From Candidatus Bathycorpusculum sp. (GTDB lineage Archaea > Thermoproteota > Bathyarchaeia > Bathyarchaeales > Bathycorpusculaceae), in NCBI GenBank assembly GCA_009781395.1, contig WQYG01000005.1, positions 1-48,449 of the forward strand: 48,449 nucleotides of DNA. Direction: 5' to 3'. This document shows, in pieces, positions 4,863 through 12,767 of this stretch (within the stretch, counting starts at the first letter, position 1; each line of letters opens with the position of its first letter). The translations under genes and the position numbers were made by a program. Below the pieces are notes generated by a model. The model was not told the DNA's origin. It worked only from the letters and a program-made list of their open reading frames with translations, and did no database searches.

Positions 4863-5834
4863 TTATGCAACTAGATCAGCCATGTCGAGACTATGTTCAT
4901 AAATCTGGAGCACAAAAGAAATAGCAGCTAAAAGTTGTGGTATGACATCAACGGGTTGATTTTTTGCAATTTTCTCAATATCTGCATAAATATCTTGAAT
5001 TCTGGTTTTTGCTTTTCGAACATTTTCTGCCAGAACCATATCTTTGTTAATAAAAGAGTTTATCGCTTGTTCATTTGCTTCAAGACACACAGTCTGTAAA
5101 TCAATCAGCACCTTTAGTAATTCACCAGATGGTTTAAACCCATGTAGATTAAGAACCGCTGTGGCTACCTGTACGCAAGCATCACCCATGGATTCAAGTA
5201 AACTGGCGGCAAGACGATAATCTAAACAGTCAATCGGGGTTATTCCTAGTTTCTCACTAAGACGGGGGGTCTGTATGATAGTTCGAAGAATTCGCACTAA
5301 TAAGAAATACAACCGATTGCTTTCTACATCACGAGCTATAACAGTTTTTGCCAACTGTAAATCGCCATTAATAAAAGAGTTTGTAACGTCGCGAGCCATT
5401 CCAGAAACTATGGCATAATTTCGGCGCAAAATTTTTTCAGGCTGCGAACCTGAAGGATCAAGCAAACACTGTAAAACCACTTGAGAATAATTCTCTTCAA
5501 CAATCTCCAGGCCTACAAGAGAACTTGCAGTAGATTTCACAGTAGCTCTTACTTCAAGGTCAAGACGGCCTTTGGCTTCAATACAAATAACATCAAACCC
5601 CAATAGATATCGACCAATAATTTCTCTACTTAGAAAAGGTTCAACAGTTAAAGTAACAATTTTTTGCGGAGCTTCAGAGGCATATTTAGCATCAACAACA
5701 AGTTTACCATCACCAGTAACATCTAAATTAACCATGGCACCTTTTTTTAATCCATTCTGTTGAGCCCAAGACTTTGGCACACAAACAAAAAATGTACCAG
5801 TGGGGGTTTGCTGAACCTTACGTAAATCACTCAC
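4863..5834 (-). CDS. phoU: AbrB-PhoU phosphate uptake regulator
   Basis: A 323-residue archaeal-type PhoU. Residues about 1-50 form a SpoVT/AbrB-like DNA-binding swapped-hairpin domain (TPTGTFFVCVPKSWAQQNGLKKG). A linker is followed by two three-helix PhoU repeats at about 120-215 and 220-323. Such proteins are thought to link phosphate status to transcription or to the Pst transporter. No pst genes are visible here, so the local target is unknown. The start is GTG 5834, with an AGGGG-type ribosome-binding sequence upstream and a TATA-like box about 45 bases before it. Confidence 0.85.
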   Translation of the reverse strand: MSDLRKVQQTPTGTFFVCVPKSWAQQNGLKKGAMVNLDVTGDGKLVVDAKYASEAPQKIVTLTVEPFLSREIIGRYLLGFDVICIEAKGRLDLEVRATVKSTASSLVGLEIVEENYSQVVLQCLLDPSGSQPEKILRRNYAIVSGMARDVTNSFINGDLQLAKTVIARDVESNRLYFLLVRILRTIIQTPRLSEKLGITPIDCLDYRLAASLLESMGDACVQVATAVLNLHGFKPSGELLKVLIDLQTVCLEANEQAINSFINKDMVLAENVRKAKTRIQDIYADIEKIAKNQPVDVIPQLLAAISFVLQIYEHSLDMADLVA

Positions 5835-6063: not shown

Positions 6064-7698
6064 ATGAACAAAAACGAAAGATTGCAAAAAGCCATTGAGG
6101 CAACAATCATTGCGGGACATCAACTTAGCAATGAAGCCTTTTACTATCTATGTCACAACTGTGAAGAAACTGACCCGCTTGCAATAATGAATATGGTACT
6201 ACATGAAATAAAAAATCTAAAAGACAAACCCTTCTTTATAGAAAAAAAATTCTTAGAAAACATCGTTAACCAATTAACTCAGACACACCAAGCAGCCCAA
6301 AACAGAAAAAACCAAACAACCAATCAAACAACAAAAAGCACAGAGTTCAATAAAGAGGAAGAAGAAAAAATACAAGACTGCAAAACACAACAACCATCAT
6401 TTAGACCATCAACAGCTTTTGACGAGAACACTTTTCACCCCTACGCAAAATACATATCCTCAGAATTAAAAATTCTTGAGGATGCAACAGACAAACTTAC
6501 CTCAAACGGAACCCTTGAAGAATACAACACACTTTTTCAAGATCGCTATAAACGCATAGAAAAAATCCTACGACAAAGAATAGACGTTAAAGCAGCAACA
6601 CCAATCAGAGAAGCTTTAAAATCACAACCAAAAACTAAACTAAAAATTATCTGTATGCTAACCGAAAAAAGGGACAACAAACAACAGACAATACTTTCCG
6701 TAGAAGACCTAGATAGTAACGCAACTGTGTTAGTTCCAAACAAAGCACCAGACGAAGTAAAAAAAAAAGCACTGCAAATTCTTCCAGACCAAGTTATCTG
6801 CATCGCAGCAATAAAAACCAAAAGTAACCTGTTTCTAGCGGAAGACATAATATTTCCAGATGTCGGACAAAAAACCCCACAAAAAGCACAAGAACCAATC
6901 TACGCCGTATTCACATCAGACATTCACATAGGCAGTACAAAATTTAACAAAGAAGCCTTCAAAAAATTCATTCTTTGGCTTAAAGGCAAATACGGCACAC
7001 CCGAAATGAGAAAAATTGCAGGGTACGTAAAATATCTCCTTGTAGCAGGAGACATTGTCGATGGTGTAGGAATTTATCCTGGTCAACAATTTGAACTAAC
7101 AATTCGTGACGTCCACAAACAATATGATTTCGCCATCAAATATTTAGAAAAAATTCCAAAATACATAGAAATAGTATTGGCACCTGGAAACCATGACACA
7201 TCAAGAAAAGCTCTGCCACAACCCGCCATTCCATCAGACTATTTAACTGCAATTGAAGGAAAAACAAATTTTCACTCAGTTGGAAGTCCATGCCTATTAA
7301 GCATTCACGGTGTCAACGTACTTATGGATCATGGAAGAAGTTTAGATGACATTGTAGCAACCATTCCAGGAATGAGCCATAATCATCCAGAAAAATCAAT
7401 GAGACTACTTTTACAAGGCCGACATATAGCACCAGTGTATGGCGGAAAAACCATGCTTTCCCCAGAAAACCGTGACTACCTAGTTATTGATAAAGTTCCA
7501 GATATCTTACATGCGGGTCATGTCCACGTTTTAGGATTCTGTAATTACAAAGGTGTCCTAGTTGTTAACTCTGGCGGTTGGCAAGAACAAACAGATTACA
7601 TGGAAAAATTAGGTTTAGTTCCAACCCCAGGAAAAGTACCAGTAATAAACTTGATGACCATGGAAATAACAGTATTAGACTTCAAAACAGAAAATTAA
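6064..7698 (+). CDS. polB: DNA polymerase D small subunit DP1 (3'-5' proofreading exonuclease)
   Basis: This 544-residue protein is the DP1 subunit of the archaeal replicative polymerase PolD. An OB-like domain precedes a calcineurin-type phosphoesterase domain. Its metal-binding motifs are intact: DIHIG (from D286), GDIVDGVG, GNHD (N376-D378), and the C-terminal HAGHVH (H483-H488). These support an active Mre11-like proofreading nuclease. A lysine- and glutamine-rich linker at about residues 70-115 separates a small N-terminal helical domain that would contact other replisome parts. The gene converges on cdc6, overlapping by four bases. DP2, its partner, is encoded about 7 kb downstream. Confidence 0.95.
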   Translation: MNKNERLQKAIEATIIAGHQLSNEAFYYLCHNCEETDPLAIMNMVLHEIKNLKDKPFFIEKKFLENIVNQLTQTHQAAQNRKNQTTNQTTKSTEFNKEEEEKIQDCKTQQPSFRPSTAFDENTFHPYAKYISSELKILEDATDKLTSNGTLEEYNTLFQDRYKRIEKILRQRIDVKAATPIREALKSQPKTKLKIICMLTEKRDNKQQTILSVEDLDSNATVLVPNKAPDEVKKKALQILPDQVICIAAIKTKSNLFLAEDIIFPDVGQKTPQKAQEPIYAVFTSDIHIGSTKFNKEAFKKFILWLKGKYGTPEMRKIAGYVKYLLVAGDIVDGVGIYPGQQFELTIRDVHKQYDFAIKYLEKIPKYIEIVLAPGNHDTSRKALPQPAIPSDYLTAIEGKTNFHSVGSPCLLSIHGVNVLMDHGRSLDDIVATIPGMSHNHPEKSMRLLLQGRHIAPVYGGKTMLSPENRDYLVIDKVPDILHAGHVHVLGFCNYKGVLVVNSGGWQEQTDYMEKLGLVPTPGKVPVINLMTMEITVLDFKTEN

Positions 7699-8936
7699 CG
7701 TTTATCAAGACTATTTTTTTGTGGGGCTTGGGGCTTATAATCAAGTATATGGCTAAATCTTTTGTCAGCACCAAACACATCACGAATAAGAGCTCTAGAA
7801 ATTTCAAGACGAATTTTCTTAGTTCGTCCATAACGCCCCATACTTACGACTTTAGCGTTAACAAGACCCATAGAATCTAATTCGTTAACTAAACTACTCA
7901 AACGGCGCTGGGTTAGAAGACCAGCTCCAAATTCGCCACAAAGCTCATTGTAGACATCATAAATTTCACCAGTATTTGCACTTGACTTGTTAAGATGATA
8001 AACACTTAGCAATACTAATTTTGAGTGTAAAGTCAAGTTATTGAGAGCTTCAACAACACGATTATGTTCAATGTGTTTCTCCGCTTGGTGCACATGATCC
8101 ACAGTAATGTTTTTTGCTTCTTGACGTTCAGCCACTTCTCCAGCTACACGTAACAAATCTAACGCGCGACGGGCATCGCCATGTTCTGCAGCTGCAAGAG
8201 CTGAACAAATACTTAAAGCAGAATCAGTTAAAACAGCGTCTTGAAAAGAAAGTTTTGAGCGTTCAAGTAAAATATTTCTCAATTCACTTGCATCATATGG
8301 TCGAAAAACGAGTTCTTCTTCACTTAAAGAACTAAAGACTCTTGGATCAAGAAACTCTTTAAGACGTAAATCATTAGAGATTCCGATGATAGAAACTTTA
8401 CTTTTTGCAAGTGTTTCATTTATTCTAGTTAACTCATACATGAAGGCATCGCCTTTCTCTTTAATTAAAGCATCAACTTCGTCAAGCACGATTATAAAAA
8501 GAATGCGCGAGGTATCAAGACTTGTACGAAATCGGGTAAAAACTTCTTCCACAGACAAACCAGTAAAAGGTATGGAAATGCCTACGCTTTGACTTAAACT
8601 TGCAAAAACACGATATTCAGAACCAGTCATACGACAATTTATATAACAAAACTTTACTTGTGCACCATACTGTTTTGCTTTTGCTTCTAAATGACTTAAA
8701 ACATATTTTGTTACAGCCGTTTTTCCAGTTCCAGTTTTTCCATAAATAAAAATGTTTGAACATCTAGCATCTTTGAGAACTGGTGCAACTCTTTCACCTA
8801 ACAATCGAATTTGATCTTCTCTATGAGGTAACTTGTCAGGTATATAGTCGTGCCTAAGCACTTCTCGGTCTTTGAAAATATTTATTCTGTTAACGAAACT
8901 ATCGAATACATCATCAAGCACGTTTGTGAATTCCAT
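7695..8936 (-). CDS. cdc6: Orc1/Cdc6 replication initiator
   Basis: This 413-residue AAA+ protein binds ORB elements and loads MCM. Walker A is GKTGTGKT (residues 66-73), Walker B LDEVDAL (151-157) and sensor 1 IIGISND (183-189). The C-terminal 120 residues form the winged-helix DNA-binding domain. It is transcribed away from an AT-rich region with three ORB-like elements, the classical archaeal arrangement of initiator beside its origin. The 3' end overlaps the end of DP1 by four bases. It is the only Orc1/Cdc6 gene in the window; other paralogues could exist elsewhere. Confidence 0.96.
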   Translation of the reverse strand: MEFTNVLDDVFDSFVNRINIFKDREVLRHDYIPDKLPHREDQIRLLGERVAPVLKDARCSNIFIYGKTGTGKTAVTKYVLSHLEAKAKQYGAQVKFCYINCRMTGSEYRVFASLSQSVGISIPFTGLSVEEVFTRFRTSLDTSRILFIIVLDEVDALIKEKGDAFMYELTRINETLAKSKVSIIGISNDLRLKEFLDPRVFSSLSEEELVFRPYDASELRNILLERSKLSFQDAVLTDSALSICSALAAAEHGDARRALDLLRVAGEVAERQEAKNITVDHVHQAEKHIEHNRVVEALNNLTLHSKLVLLSVYHLNKSSANTGEIYDVYNELCGEFGAGLLTQRRLSSLVNELDSMGLVNAKVVSMGRYGRTKKIRLEISRALIRDVFGADKRFSHILDYKPQAPQKNSLDKR

Positions 8937-9072
8937 GTTACAGCCTCAAGTTTTCAAAGGATATACCGTTATTTCTATTGGAACAAATAAAGCATCAGGT
9001 ACAAAAATCTGGTTTGTTCACACAAGATTTCTACAAAACTATGTTTAACTAAGGAAAAATATTTACAAAAAG

Positions 9073-9103
9073 ACACACCCCCAAATTTCCACTGGATAAA
9101 AAC
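9073..9103 (-). promoter_or_regulatory. ORB1, Orc1/Cdc6 binding site
   Basis: The minus strand reads TCCAGTGGAAATTTGGGGGT followed by GTGT, an excellent match to the archaeal ORB dyad plus G-string. It lies 137 bases upstream of the cdc6 start, so it may also control cdc6. Confidence 0.88.
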
Positions 9104-9257
9104 TTAAGTGTAGTATAATTAACCTTAAGTTTAATTATTAATAATATATACATTGGGTATTACATACTATTTTTATATAATAAACTCTGTTATCCAAATT
9201 TTTAGATACTTTTTTTATAAAAATTCTGAACGGCAAAATTTGCAGCATAATTATAAC

Positions 9258-9283
9258 CTCTCGAATGGAAACCAAGGGGTGTG
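9258..9283 (+). promoter_or_regulatory. ORB2, Orc1/Cdc6 binding site
   Basis: The plus strand reads TCGAATGGAAACCAAGGGGT then GTG. The right half and G-string are intact, while the left half of the dyad is degenerate (TCGAAT instead of TCCAGT). It is inverted relative to ORB1 across the AT-rich element. Confidence 0.8.
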
Positions 9284-9402
9284 CCTATAAAACGTTAAGA
9301 ACCATTTTAACAGCCTTATTTTTCTTGGGAATAACCCTTCTTTTTTCACTGACCCTTCTCTGTTGATGAACTGCTTTGAAAATATGAAAATACACATTGA
9401 CA

Positions 9403-9431
9403 CTTCACAAAACTGTGAAGTTCATGTGAAG
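9403..9431. repeat. Palindromic CTTCACA/TGTGAAG cluster inside oriC
   Basis: CTTCACAAAACTGTGAAG (9403-9420) is a perfect 7-bp inverted repeat, followed by a third half-site TGTGAAG at 9425-9431. It lies between ORB2 and ORB3 and about 300 bases upstream of the winged-helix gene. The TGTGA core is shared with the TGTGAT repeats at 11.07-12.36 kb, but the spacing differs, so a common binding protein is only a possibility. Confidence 0.6.
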
Positions 9432-9504
9432 TGCTAATGAAATCTCTTTAGTTTGAGCTCTATTTTCATTAAAGCTTAAGATTTTATGATGATTTTTGTG
9501 AATA

Positions 9505-9536
9505 ACACACCCCTGCATTTCTACTGGAAAATGTGG
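9505..9536 (-). promoter_or_regulatory. ORB3, Orc1/Cdc6 binding site
   Basis: The minus strand reads TTCCAGTAGAAATGCAGGGG then TGTGT. The core has one change from TCCAGTGGAAA, and the G-string and GTGTGT tail match ORB1. Confidence 0.82.
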
Positions 9537-9725
9537 ATTAACGGTGAAATATTTTTGTTTTTATTTTTTATTTAATTGTGAAGCTTGTAAAAGCATAATC
9601 AATGAAATTTTTGACTAAAAATCAATTTAAAGCATGTTTTAGGCTTTTTCACATTACATACTTTCACCATAACAGCTATAAGCTCTGAAGTCATAGAGTT
9701 GTGAACAAACACCTAGGTAAAAGAT

Positions 9726-10166
9726 ATGCCTGCAAACAAAATGCGCGTGGAGATATATGATAACGAAGGCAACAAATATACTGTTGCATTCGACGGTCAA
9801 ATTACACGCGATAAAACTTTACGTATCTTAGATATTGCAGAATTACTAGGTGGTATGTCTAACGAAAGACAATCAACAATAACTTCAAACAATCCTCTTC
9901 CAAATATAACTTCGCGATTTGAAAAAGTTCAAAAAGTTATTCAGAAAAGTTTTCCATTAGTTTGGTTTGTATCTAAAGATGTACAAGCAATTTATGAACA
10001 AGACCTTAAGGAACCAATCAGTTTAAGCACGGTTTCAACATATTTATCAAGAATGACAAACAAGGGCTTACTTATACGAACAGGTACTGGAAACAGTGTC
10101 AAGTACAAAATAACACCAAACTTACCACAAACAAAAATCAAACAACAAATTGAAAATAACTATTAA
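9726..10166 (+). CDS. Origin-adjacent winged-helix protein
   Basis: This 146-residue protein has a short beta-rich N-terminal part (VEIYDNEGNKYTVAFDG, residues 8-24). A helical stretch ILDIAELLGGM follows, then a winged-helix domain at about residues 62-135 (SLSTVSTYLSRMTNKGLLIRTGTGNSVKYKI, with recognition helix and wing visible). No enzymatic motif is seen. The gene reads away from oriC and its start lies about 190 bases from ORB3, so origin firing and its promoter share DNA. It could be a transcription factor or an accessory initiator in the spirit of crenarchaeal WhiP, but sequence alone does not show that. The family is not recognised beyond the fold. Confidence 0.8.
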   Translation: MPANKMRVEIYDNEGNKYTVAFDGQITRDKTLRILDIAELLGGMSNERQSTITSNNPLPNITSRFEKVQKVIQKSFPLVWFVSKDVQAIYEQDLKEPISLSTVSTYLSRMTNKGLLIRTGTGNSVKYKITPNLPQTKIKQQIENNY

Positions 10167-10235
10167 CTATTTGTTCCCTTCACAGGGGCATGTTAATTTT
10201 GTTTCACAACTTAAATGATGAGCCATATACTTTTA

Positions 10236-11054
10236 TTATATTTCGTGTGTACTGATTTTCTCCTCTTTTTTCAAAAATTTTTCCATTTCCTTTTTAACAC
10301 TATACTTAAAAGGAATTTTTCCCATTTCCCTTTCAAGATATCCCCCTTCATAGAGTTTTTTCATTAACCGTGCTGTATGCTCTCTACTAAGTTCAACACG
10401 TTCTTTAATTTCAGGAGCAGTCTTTGCTCCTTCAGAAGATAACATTTCCAATACTATTATCTCAGTATTAGTTAATGAAGCTAAGGCTTTATCTCGTTTG
10501 ATAGGTACGACTGGAATTACTTGTTCGACCTTAAAATCATTAGGTGCTAACAAGATTTTTTCTATTTGTTCCTCAAATATAACGATTTTGTTTTTGAATA
10601 ATTCGTGGTTTGTTTCAATATCTTTTATTTTTACATCTAAGCCTGACAAGTTACTGATGTTTTGTGTCAAACTGTTAAGTTGATTTATTTGTGTCTCAAG
10701 TAAACTCTTTTGGTTTTCAATAATATTTCTTTGATCTTCCAAGTTTTTTTTCTGATCTTCAAGATTGCCAAGTTGGTTCTCTACAGGTGAAATTCTTTTT
10801 TCAATATTGTCTATTTTTCTTAGCCCAGTATCGGATTTTGCTAGACTTCCTTCAACTTTAAACGCTATTTGCTCAAGCCTTTCCGACTCACGTTTAAGCT
10901 CACGATTGAAACTTAGTACAATATCTTCAATAGCGTCATGGGCTTTTTCATACTCTTTTTGAGCCTGACGTATTCTGCCATAATAACCAGTTGACGCAAC
11001 AACTATTGCTGCTAATAATATACTCATTAATGTTGGTAATATAATTTCACTCAA
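10236..11054 (-). CDS. Membrane-anchored coiled-coil protein with C-terminal winged helix
   Basis: This 272-residue protein has an N-terminal hydrophobic segment (about residues 4-24, ILPTLMSILLAAIVVASTGY). A long coiled coil follows (about 30-165), rich in Glu, Lys, Gln, Asn and Leu and including a near-repetitive stretch of NLEDQKK / NLEDQRN / IIENQKS units. The C-terminus (about 190-268) is a winged helix (LTNTEIIVLEMLSSEGAKTAPEIK...SREHTARLMKKLYEGGYLERE). The architecture is a membrane-tethered, probably oligomeric, DNA-binding protein. Its start faces an intergenic array of TGTGAT/ATCACA half-sites, suggesting autoregulation or a DNA-anchoring site. It converges with the 9726-10166 gene. 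Function is unknown. Confidence 0.78.
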   Translation of the reverse strand: MSEIILPTLMSILLAAIVVASTGYYGRIRQAQKEYEKAHDAIEDIVLSFNRELKRESERLEQIAFKVEGSLAKSDTGLRKIDNIEKRISPVENQLGNLEDQKKNLEDQRNIIENQKSLLETQINQLNSLTQNISNLSGLDVKIKDIETNHELFKNKIVIFEEQIEKILLAPNDFKVEQVIPVVPIKRDKALASLTNTEIIVLEMLSSEGAKTAPEIKERVELSREHTARLMKKLYEGGYLEREMGKIPFKYSVKKEMEKFLKKEEKISTHEI

Positions 11055-11066
11055 GTTTCCACCTCA

Positions 11067-11188
11067 TGTGATGTAGATGTGATTTTTCTATGATTTAGCG
11101 TGTTGCATCACACATCACAGTTCTGTATGTGCCTTTTAAGCCTTGTGGTAATTCCCATGTAATGCAATATATGACATCACACATCACA
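11067..11188. repeat. TGTGAT half-site array upstream of the coiled-coil wHTH gene
   Basis: Half-sites occur as tandem pairs: TGTGAT at 11067-11072 and 11078-11083 (11-bp spacing), ATCACA at 11107-11112 and 11114-11119 (7-bp), and ATCACA at 11176-11181 and 11183-11188 (7-bp). All six sit within 135 bases of the start codon at 11054, where an operator for that gene would be expected. The first pair is in the opposite orientation to the other two. Confidence 0.7.
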
Positions 11189-11336
11189 CGAATCACGTTA
11201 TTTCGTTGATTTTCACATTTTCCATAAGTTCGAAAACAAGCTCATTTTATCTCTTATTTTATAATTGCTTCTTATTTTATCTTGGTTGAATATTGTTGTT
11301 AACTTGTGAAAAAGAAGTCAAAATTAGCCTTTTTTC

Positions 11337-11356
11337 TGTGATTTGTGATGTCACAA
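11337..11356. repeat. 14-bp palindrome TTGTGATGTCACAA with an extra half-site
   Basis: The perfect palindrome TTGTGATGTCACAA occupies 11343-11356, preceded by another TGTGAT at 11337-11342. It overlaps the stop codon of the 11351-11830 gene. An identical 14-mer occurs at 12223-12236 on the other side of that gene. Confidence 0.75.
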
Positions 11357-11830
11357 AGGCTGATTTGATGGGCTAGAGAGGCGTTTTAAGCTTGTTTCTA
11401 TCTCTTCTCTGATGATTTCTATCATTTTTACGTGATTTTCTATCTCTTCTTGCTTTCCGGGTATGTCTTGATGAGCCTCCACATAATCTCTTAGTTTATT
11501 CGCTATTTCGAGGTATGGGTCTAAAGTTGAGCTTTCAAACACACCTAAATAACCTAAAAGTAGTACAGTGTAAATGGATTTTATTACATTTTCTTTGGAC
11601 TGTGCTAATGTCCTGTTAAATGAACCTCGACTTATTTTAGCCTTTGTTAATCGTAATTTGGCTTTTTCGTCGTACTTTAGTTGTTTGCCTGATATATTTT
11701 CAGCTAATATGTCAATTAACAATGTTTCGAGTTGTATTCTTGTTAATTGACTGTTTTTTGCCAATATTTTAACAATGGGGTCATTTAAAACCCCATTTAA
11801 CCATGTTGTTGTGCTGTCTTTTAGCTTCAA
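11351..11830 (-). CDS. Small helical protein with helix-turn-helix-like segment, flanked by palindromes
   Basis: This 159-residue protein is mostly helical. Residues about 55-100 (KAKLRLTKAKISRGSFNRTLAQSKENVIKSIYTVLLLGYLG) have the look of a DNA-binding helix-turn-helix followed by a hydrophobic helix. The C-terminal third (about 105-155) is charged and could form a coiled coil. I do not recognise a named family. It lies alone on the minus strand, bracketed by two identical TTGTGATGTCACAA palindromes, one overlapping its stop codon and one about 390 bases upstream of its start. It shares strand and repeat family with the membrane-anchored winged-helix gene downstream, which suggests they work together. 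Confidence 0.72.
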   Translation of the reverse strand: MKLKDSTTTWLNGVLNDPIVKILAKNSQLTRIQLETLLIDILAENISGKQLKYDEKAKLRLTKAKISRGSFNRTLAQSKENVIKSIYTVLLLGYLGVFESSTLDPYLEIANKLRDYVEAHQDIPGKQEEIENHVKMIEIIREEIETSLKRLSSPSNQPL

Positions 11831-12222
11831 AACTTATGTCTCCTTTGTTATGTTAAATGGATACAACTTTGTATACTATCGACACTTTTATAGCTTACTA
11901 CCCCTAAAATAACCTTTTTCAAACAACTAAAACAGAATAAATTGCGGTTATTATGTGATAATATTGAATTATTGAGTTCATCGTGATATTTCCAATAAAA
12001 ATCACGCCTAAAACAATATTTAAAGGACACTCTGCCGTTATGTATTTAACTTACTATAGTGACTTTTCATCTTTTTCTAAACTTTTATGCTAATTCCTAA
12101 TTCCCACTCTAACGCTTCTTTGCTTGTTTAATGTTTATTTTTTCAGCCAAAACACTTTTTCTTTCTCATCAGCATTACAATTTTTCTTACTAAGCCACAT
12201 ATAAATAACCACATTGACATAG

Positions 12223-12357
12223 TTGTGATGTCACAAAACATGTATAATCCACGCTAAATCACGTGTGTTTCCCATGAAAAAGCATGATGTCACAGATTGT
12301 GATGAGCTCGTAACGTAAATGTGATAAACTTGTGATTTGTGATTATCACGATCACAA
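12223..12357. repeat. Second TGTGAT/ATCACA palindrome cluster
   Basis: The cluster starts with a perfect TTGTGATGTCACAA (12223-12236). It continues with ATGATGTCACA (12285-12295), TTGTGATG (12298-12305) and TGTGAT (12320-12325), then a compound site at 12330-12357 made of two direct TTGTGAT units followed by inverted TATCACG and ATCACAA. It lies in the roughly 700-base non-coding gap 11831-12527, upstream of the 11351-11830 gene. Nothing else convincing is seen in this gap. Confidence 0.75.
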
Positions 12358-12527: not shown

Positions 12528-12767
12528 TTAAGCAGTTTCCATCCAAATCACAAACCTTCTTAAATTCCAAAGATTGACATAATCAGAAAAGATTATCCAA
12601 GTCTGAACCTTGTTTTTGGCTTTAGGTGTTATTTCTTCGTGTTTTTGCAGATTTACCTGTTTGTTTTCACGGATGCAATTAATTTGAACAAGAGCCAGTT
12701 TGGTGTTGTCTTTCATGTCTCCATTTTCTTTAACAATCTTGACTTGGAGACCTGAAATCATTTCCAA
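12528..12767 (-). pseudogene. Remnant of a nitrilase-family amidase next to nadE
   Basis: A 79-codon frame begins six bases after the nadE stop on the same strand. Residues 23-50 (TKLALVQINC followed by NLQKHEEITPKAK) match the N-terminal strand and helix of carbon-nitrogen hydrolases, which start with LAxxQ and a helix ending near the catalytic Glu. Beyond that the expected FPE Glu motif is replaced by WIIFSDYVNLWNL, and the frame stops at 12528. The Lys and Cys motifs are absent. Glutaminase domains of this family supply ammonia to NAD synthetase, which fits the position. It is probably a decayed gene; a short real protein is possible. Confidence 0.55.

Follow-up and report, generated by a model that had tools for sequence, protein, structure and literature searches.

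Directly beside the predicted replication origin of Bathyarchaeia lies a conserved gene trio, w146, w272 and o159, together with an array of TGTGAT/ATCACA half-sites that is largely specific to the locus and absent where w272 is absent. The w272 product is predicted to join a transmembrane helix to a winged helix, and from sequence comparison we see an even chance that the locus is an origin-linked nucleoprotein system, anchoring or centromere-like in character, which would also autoregulate w272.

Gene order at the predicted origin

The window, by which we mean the whole 48,449-nucleotide stretch of DNA analysed, matches Candidatus Bathycorpusculum (Bathyarchaeia), most of its nearest named relatives being Bathycorpusculum MAGs. 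It carries the following features around the predicted origin:

7698..8936, minus strand: orc1/cdc6 initiator
8937..9725: predicted replication origin, the gap between cdc6 and w146, with ORB-like elements near 9075-9095, 9265-9285 and 9508-9530
9726..10163, plus strand: w146, 146 aa, with an N-terminal beta-hairpin/helix domain and a C-terminal winged helix
10239..11054, minus strand: w272, with an N-terminal transmembrane helix, a coiled coil and a C-terminal MarR-like winged helix; proposed array-binding membrane anchor
11354..11830, minus strand: o159, a 159-aa helical protein of unrecognised family, highly conserved
11857..11876, no strand assigned: second cis-element TGGATACAACTTTGTATACT, 28 bp upstream of o159

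The preliminary description had recognised three reading frames here (9726-10163 on the plus strand, 10239-11054 and 11354-11830 on the minus strand) and called their products DNA-binding-like. The frames are as described, whereas the label is unproven for o159, which matched no family in Pfam, NCBIfam or PDB. When dozens of Bathyarchaeia loci were compared, the order phoU-DP1-cdc6-ori-w146-w272-o159-nadE-zf-pcrB-DP2 was conserved, with the trio adjoining orc1/cdc6, DP1 and DP2 in essentially every locus examined, even where the identity of w272 had fallen to 37%. The trio was found beside cdc6 in relatives across Bathyarchaeia, and this linkage reaches the ammonia-oxidising archaea. Its neighbours in the window are a phoU-like gene, DP1, orc1/cdc6, a nitrilase remnant, nadE, a small zinc-finger gene, pcrB and DP2. 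The PhoU-domain protein (4866-5834), which lies beside DP1 and is conserved in Bathyarchaeia loci, carries an N-terminal AbrB/MazE-type DNA-binding domain. The reading frame o79 (12531-12767) resembles what is left of the N-terminal part of a nitrilase-type gene; in many relatives a seemingly longer version lies between array B and nadE. Literature searches, confined to open-licence papers, found no paper on the locus.

The gap between cdc6 and w146 measures about 0.8 kb, a length kept in relatives, and contains ORB-like elements in both orientations (e.g. ACACACCCCCAAATTTCCACTGGA); its designation as the predicted origin is a reasonable one. It holds 0-2 half-sites per locus, which is no enrichment, and gave no Rfam match to a known RNA. 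One locus, L086, has a gap of 2181 bp versus the usual ~800 bp, and in L075, L076, L079, L083, L091, L102 and L104 some 2.6 kb of DNA that is absent from the window separates w146 from w272.

Among the three proteins, w146 gave one match per genome in 52 of the 53 good-quality family genomes. Its winged helix matches the penicillinase-repressor type weakly, and its model resembled the generic winged helices RosR, Fur and MecI (AspA lower in the list), none at E<0.001. For w272, the architecture read earlier from its 272 residues was recovered in full: the protein starts with a hydrophobic helix, continues as a long coiled coil and ends in a winged helix (HTH_27, E=1e-5; MarR, E=1.5e-5). The C-terminal domain alone exceeds the curated cut-offs, with 25.2 bits for MarR (cut-off 24.6) and 26.2 bits for HTH_27 (cut-off 22.2). 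Among homologs the recognition helix SREHTARLMKKLY is near-invariant and the transmembrane helix is conserved, and the coiled coil drifts, with low sequence conservation. The membrane helix is followed by positively charged residues, which would place the coiled coil and winged helix in the cytoplasm. Profile matches of w272 in the PDB were to coiled coils (tropomyosin, chemoreceptors) and were uninformative.

Homologs of o159 occur through much of Thermoproteota. Its AlphaFold model reached a pLDDT of only 66, and a Foldseek search with it returned no significant match. Four-fold identity in o159 is 0.44 versus 0.30-0.33 in seven neighbouring genes at matched distance, so that its synonymous sites are unusually conserved; expression, an overlapping RNA or a DNA-level function may be the cause. 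The second cis-element at 11857-11876 belongs to a type of inverted repeat, ATACAnnnTTTGTATAC, which 53 of 61 loci carry 27-42 bp ahead of o159; a similar element is found in two lineages that lack w272 (f8 and f10). This type of repeat is probably a separate operator, of o159 or of w146.

A locus-specific array that follows w272

The half-sites fall into two groups, arrays A and B, whose elements have no assigned strand:

11067..11083: array A, first cluster, immediately ahead of the w272 start codon, with two TGTGAT at a spacing of 11 bp
11107..11119: array A, tandem element D2 ATCACACATCACA, a 7-bp direct repeat, about at the inferred w272 transcript start
11176..11188: array A, tandem element D1 ATCACACATCACA, on the upstream side of the w272 core promoter at a distance of 69 bp from D2
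11337..11355: array A, triple element TGTGATTTGTGATGTCACA, in which one half-site is inverted and two are direct; the o159 stop codon falls within it, and most relatives keep it
12224..12235: array B, inverted repeat TGTGATGTCACA, some 395 bp ahead of o159
12289..12356: array B, main cluster of six half-sites (one GTCACA, four TGTGAT and one ATCACA)

Here the w272 start site was inferred from a TATA-like sequence, CTTAAAAG, at about 11131-11138. Over a dozen half-sites had been reported, and we counted 15 exact copies of TGTGAT/ATCACA in 11055-12357, or 18 when TGTGAC/GTCACA were added, whereas the other 47 kb hold 31. Chance clustering was rejected, as 5000 Markov simulations averaged 1.4 half-sites and never exceeded 8. 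The reported spacings of 7 and 11 bp were both present. Across 61 relatives, same-strand pairs were dominated by the 7-bp spacing (169 instances, with 22 at 11 bp), and convergent pairs were spaced by 6 bp (51 instances) or 13 bp (50 instances). Such fixed spacing suggests that neighbouring binding domains touch. The supposed perfect palindrome TTGTGATGTCACAA had to be corrected: it is an inverted repeat, TTGTGA-TG-TCACAA, with an asymmetric two-base centre.

Array A recurred in all 61 distinct Bathyarchaeia loci, and TGTGAT, present in each of them, was enriched 19.8-fold over the flanks. Relatives share a common layout, with half-sites in the w272 leader, ATCACACATCACA on either side of the w272 TATA-like region and TGTGATTTGTGAYGTCACA at the o159 stop codon. 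Array B is located upstream of o159, at about 390-740 bp, with cluster B at 390-530 bp in most loci. The tandem element, RTCACANRTCACA, is near-exclusive to the locus: the window's whole genome has four matches to it, all of them there, and the single-contig genome G053 has three, likewise all there; it is present in 54 of 61 family genomes where, among the matches listed, most are at the locus. Half-site pairs outside the locus were no commoner than a reversed control pattern in the window's genome (16 versus 26). Because of this near-exclusivity and the scarcity of outside pairs, a genome-wide regulon does not fit and was rejected.

Beyond the main Bathyarchaeia set, the array follows w272. 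Ten loci from families without w272 (f8, f10, f31 and f32) showed no half-site enrichment, though w146 and/or o159 remain there, and half-sites were enriched in 28 of the 37 loci in which w272 is present (Fisher p=1.8e-5, with loci classified by hand, three contig-cut loci left out and related genomes counted separately). Families f8 and f10, which belong to the same class as the window, keep w146, o159, cdc6, DP1 and DP2 in order and lack both w272 and the array. Since the array is lost with w272 while the other elements stay, it tracks w272 rather than o159, w146 or the origin. This distribution makes w272 the likely binder of the array, and we hold with considerable confidence that its predicted winged helix binds these sites.

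The family f12, which carries archaeal AmoA, has w146, w272 with its transmembrane helix and o159, all beside cdc6, and 9-14 half-sites versus about 2.5 expected. One f12 genome, G181, is AmoA-positive, consists of one contig of 1,645,259 bp and contains the trio; its size is that of the genome of Nitrosopumilus maritimus SCM1. SCM1 is a cultured organism for which reviews give 1645 kb of DNA and one mapped origin. Families f17 and f21 have the w272-o159 pair at a place away from cdc6, with few sites. Three lineages have a w272 that lacks the membrane helix, of which f15 and f23 have few sites, yet f28 has 10 half-sites. The helix-less homologs in L179, L197 and L200 (f15 and f23) start with short segments such as MVSLFGKGKKEVEE, reminiscent of the amphipathic membrane-targeting start of bacterial Noc.

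Selection on the array and competing explanations

An aminotransferase gene stands at the position of cluster B in 14 deep-branching loci, and the sites lie inside its reading frame. Among its Val codons, three are GTG in 14/14, 14/14 and 13/14 of these loci (100, 100 and 93%), and the same codons complete TGTGAY in 13, 12 and 10 of the 14. None of the 16 other conserved Val columns stands in a TGTGAY context, and their GTG use is 7-46%; the seven most codon-conserved columns of the whole gene all fall within cluster B. An ortholog at the locus in f4, about 61% identical, has all three sites, which were found in none of 29 aminotransferase copies elsewhere in the genomes. In the window's own lineage the aminotransferase gene is absent and cluster B is still there. 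Because the cluster codons are kept at the locus and not in copies elsewhere, the sites are under DNA-level selection inside the reading frame. Autoregulation of a promoter would hardly explain by itself why sites are kept in an aminotransferase gene, and we lean towards a role for the array beyond control of the w272 promoter.

These findings bear on the possibility that w272 is an autoregulated membrane-bound transcription factor, which would sense a membrane or cell-cycle signal and repress or activate its own gene and o159, with the array as operator and the proximity to the origin as inherited gene order. The w272 core promoter has a tandem element on either side, one of them over the inferred start, with more sites in the leader; few sites remain in f17 and f21, away from cdc6; and transmembrane transcription regulators are common in archaea (PMC10269533). 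However, array B, some 390-740 bp upstream of o159, is under selection inside an unrelated reading frame in the 14 deep loci, and the sites go beyond a usual operator in their number, their geometry and their near-restriction to the locus. We regard this explanation as unlikely, if far from negligible.

The family f31, which lacks w272 and the array, provides a different view of o159. A Soj-type ParA gene neighbours o159 in seven f31 genomes from three genera, directly preceding it in L174, L193, L196, L212, L213 and L215 and lying 1.4 kb away in L195; the closest solved structures to this ParA are Soj/ParA segregation ATPases. No ParA is found beside o159 in genus g93 of the same family (L214, L217). 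In this lineage without w272, o159 probably works with ParA. A ParB-type gene also lies near o159 in L174 and L212 (ParB_N E=3e-8 in L174). In several f31 loci, where w146 is convergent, ParA is preceded by a small conserved gene of about 115 aa that has no Pfam or significant PDB match.

Control of replication initiation was also considered, whereby a membrane-bound complex beside oriC would limit or time Orc1/Cdc6 firing, or tether the replication machinery, rather than act in segregation. The constant proximity to ORB-like elements, cdc6, DP1 and DP2 would suit such a role, but the origin gap itself has no half-site enrichment and f31 couples the partner o159 to a segregation ATPase, which makes the explanation improbable. 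That o159 or w146 rather than w272 binds the array is more improbable still: o159 is flanked by the array on both sides, but f8 and f10 retain o159, w146 and cdc6 in order without w272 or the array, and the o159 promoter has its own, different element, ATACAnnnTTTGTATAC, a similar form of which persists in those two families.

Origin anchoring or segregation had been proposed in the preliminary description, with an autoregulated membrane-bound transcription factor as the plainer reading. A lack of synteny or of the array in relatives would have refuted the proposal, and neither was observed: both are kept across Bathyarchaeia and reach the ammonia-oxidising archaea. Sites in unrelated coding sequence and the coupling of o159 to ParA favour anchoring or segregation over a simple operator, whereas the part of the array that flanks the w272 promoter and the three lineages with a helix-less w272 speak against it; we consider the case for such a role to be evenly balanced. 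Under the anchoring reading, w272 would be held in the membrane by its N-terminal helix, and the coiled coil would make it a dimer or higher oligomer and space the winged helices off the membrane. The winged helices would bind the rows of TGTGAT flanking o159, about 1-3 kb from the origin. The many clustered sites could then assemble a multivalent complex that keeps the origin region attached to the membrane, either anchoring the chromosome or acting in a centromere-like manner, while sites around the w272 promoter would let w272 limit its own expression, and o159 and w146 would be partner or regulatory proteins of the same module. Since part of the array flanks its promoter, w272 is likely to be autoregulated as well, which is compatible with anchoring.

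Several observations count against anchoring. The placement of array A around the w272 promoter is that expected of an autoregulatory operator; f15, f23 and f28 have a w272 without the membrane helix, with the array still present in f28; the pair in f17 and f21 is not near cdc6 and has few sites; and lineages without w272 live without it. Furthermore, adjacency to ParA is confined to one family, and there w272 is absent, and the w272 coiled coil is poorly conserved in sequence. The fullest form of the proposal is that one membrane-spanning protein with a coiled coil and a winged helix binds a centromere-like array of its own next to oriC, with no ParA needed at the locus, from Bathyarchaeia to ammonia-oxidising archaea, and with a partner, o159, that is coupled to ParA elsewhere. 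We put it forward tentatively, at slightly less than an even chance.

Comparison with known segregation and anchoring systems

The locus resembles ParABS in that sites cluster near the origin and a single DNA-binding protein (w272, predicted) would recognise them, and in the Soj-type ParA that neighbours o159 in f31. The array lies beside the predicted cdc6/ORB origin in 61/61 loci, its binding being predicted. However, w272 is predicted to be membrane-anchored with a MarR-like winged helix and without ParB_N, a domain that had no match in w146, w272 or o159. No ParA was found among the genes around the locus, or at the locus in Bathyarchaeia or ammonia oxidisers; the f31 cassette alone has one. 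SegAB of the Sulfolobales, a segregation system of archaea, likewise has its DNA sites grouped near its own genes (PMC5120986, PMC12284271), and foci of SegB towards the cell periphery have been read by their authors as possible membrane tethering (PMC5120986, PMC12284271). Unlike the present array, SegB sites are also scattered over the chromosome (PMC5120986, PMC12284271), and no ParA/SegA-type ATPase gene that could form a SegA and SegB pair is present at the locus. Pfam AAA_31 matched in every genome tested, all controls included, and is uninformative on the absence of SegA. Neither ParABS nor SegAB fits as the identity of the locus.

Transmembrane transcription regulators, such as the membrane-bound ones of Sulfolobus, likewise combine a transmembrane helix and a helix-turn-helix in one protein (PMC10269533, PMC6396743), and w272, with a predicted transmembrane region and a predicted DNA-binding domain, falls within their broad definition (PMC10269533). 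It differs from them in its large array, long coiled coil and fixed linkage to the origin, and no target operon outside the locus is suggested. RacA, Noc and PopZ tether the origin or chromosome to the cell envelope in bacteria. The proposed action of w272 would be like theirs, in that the origin region or chromosome is attached to the envelope, but the proteins are unrelated and w272 joins a membrane helix and a winged helix in one polypeptide. WhiP of Sulfolobus oriC3 is, like w272, an origin-associated archaeal protein other than Orc1/Cdc6; by description it is a Cdt1-like initiator that binds the origin (PMC5333045), whereas w272 is predicted to be membrane-anchored and its sites lie outside the ORB-bearing gap.

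Taken together, there is a fair chance that the locus represents a new type of archaeal chromosome anchor. Chromosome positioning and segregation in archaea are largely open, SegAB of the Sulfolobales being the best-known system, and a 2016 review named, among its outstanding questions, the form that centromeres take in archaea and whether chromosome orientation within the cell is fixed (PMC5120986). For two archaeal groups that are very abundant, the locus offers a concrete candidate centromere or anchor site and a candidate anchor protein, and the presence of the trio in G181, whose size is that of the genome of the cultured Nitrosopumilus maritimus, makes a direct test possible.
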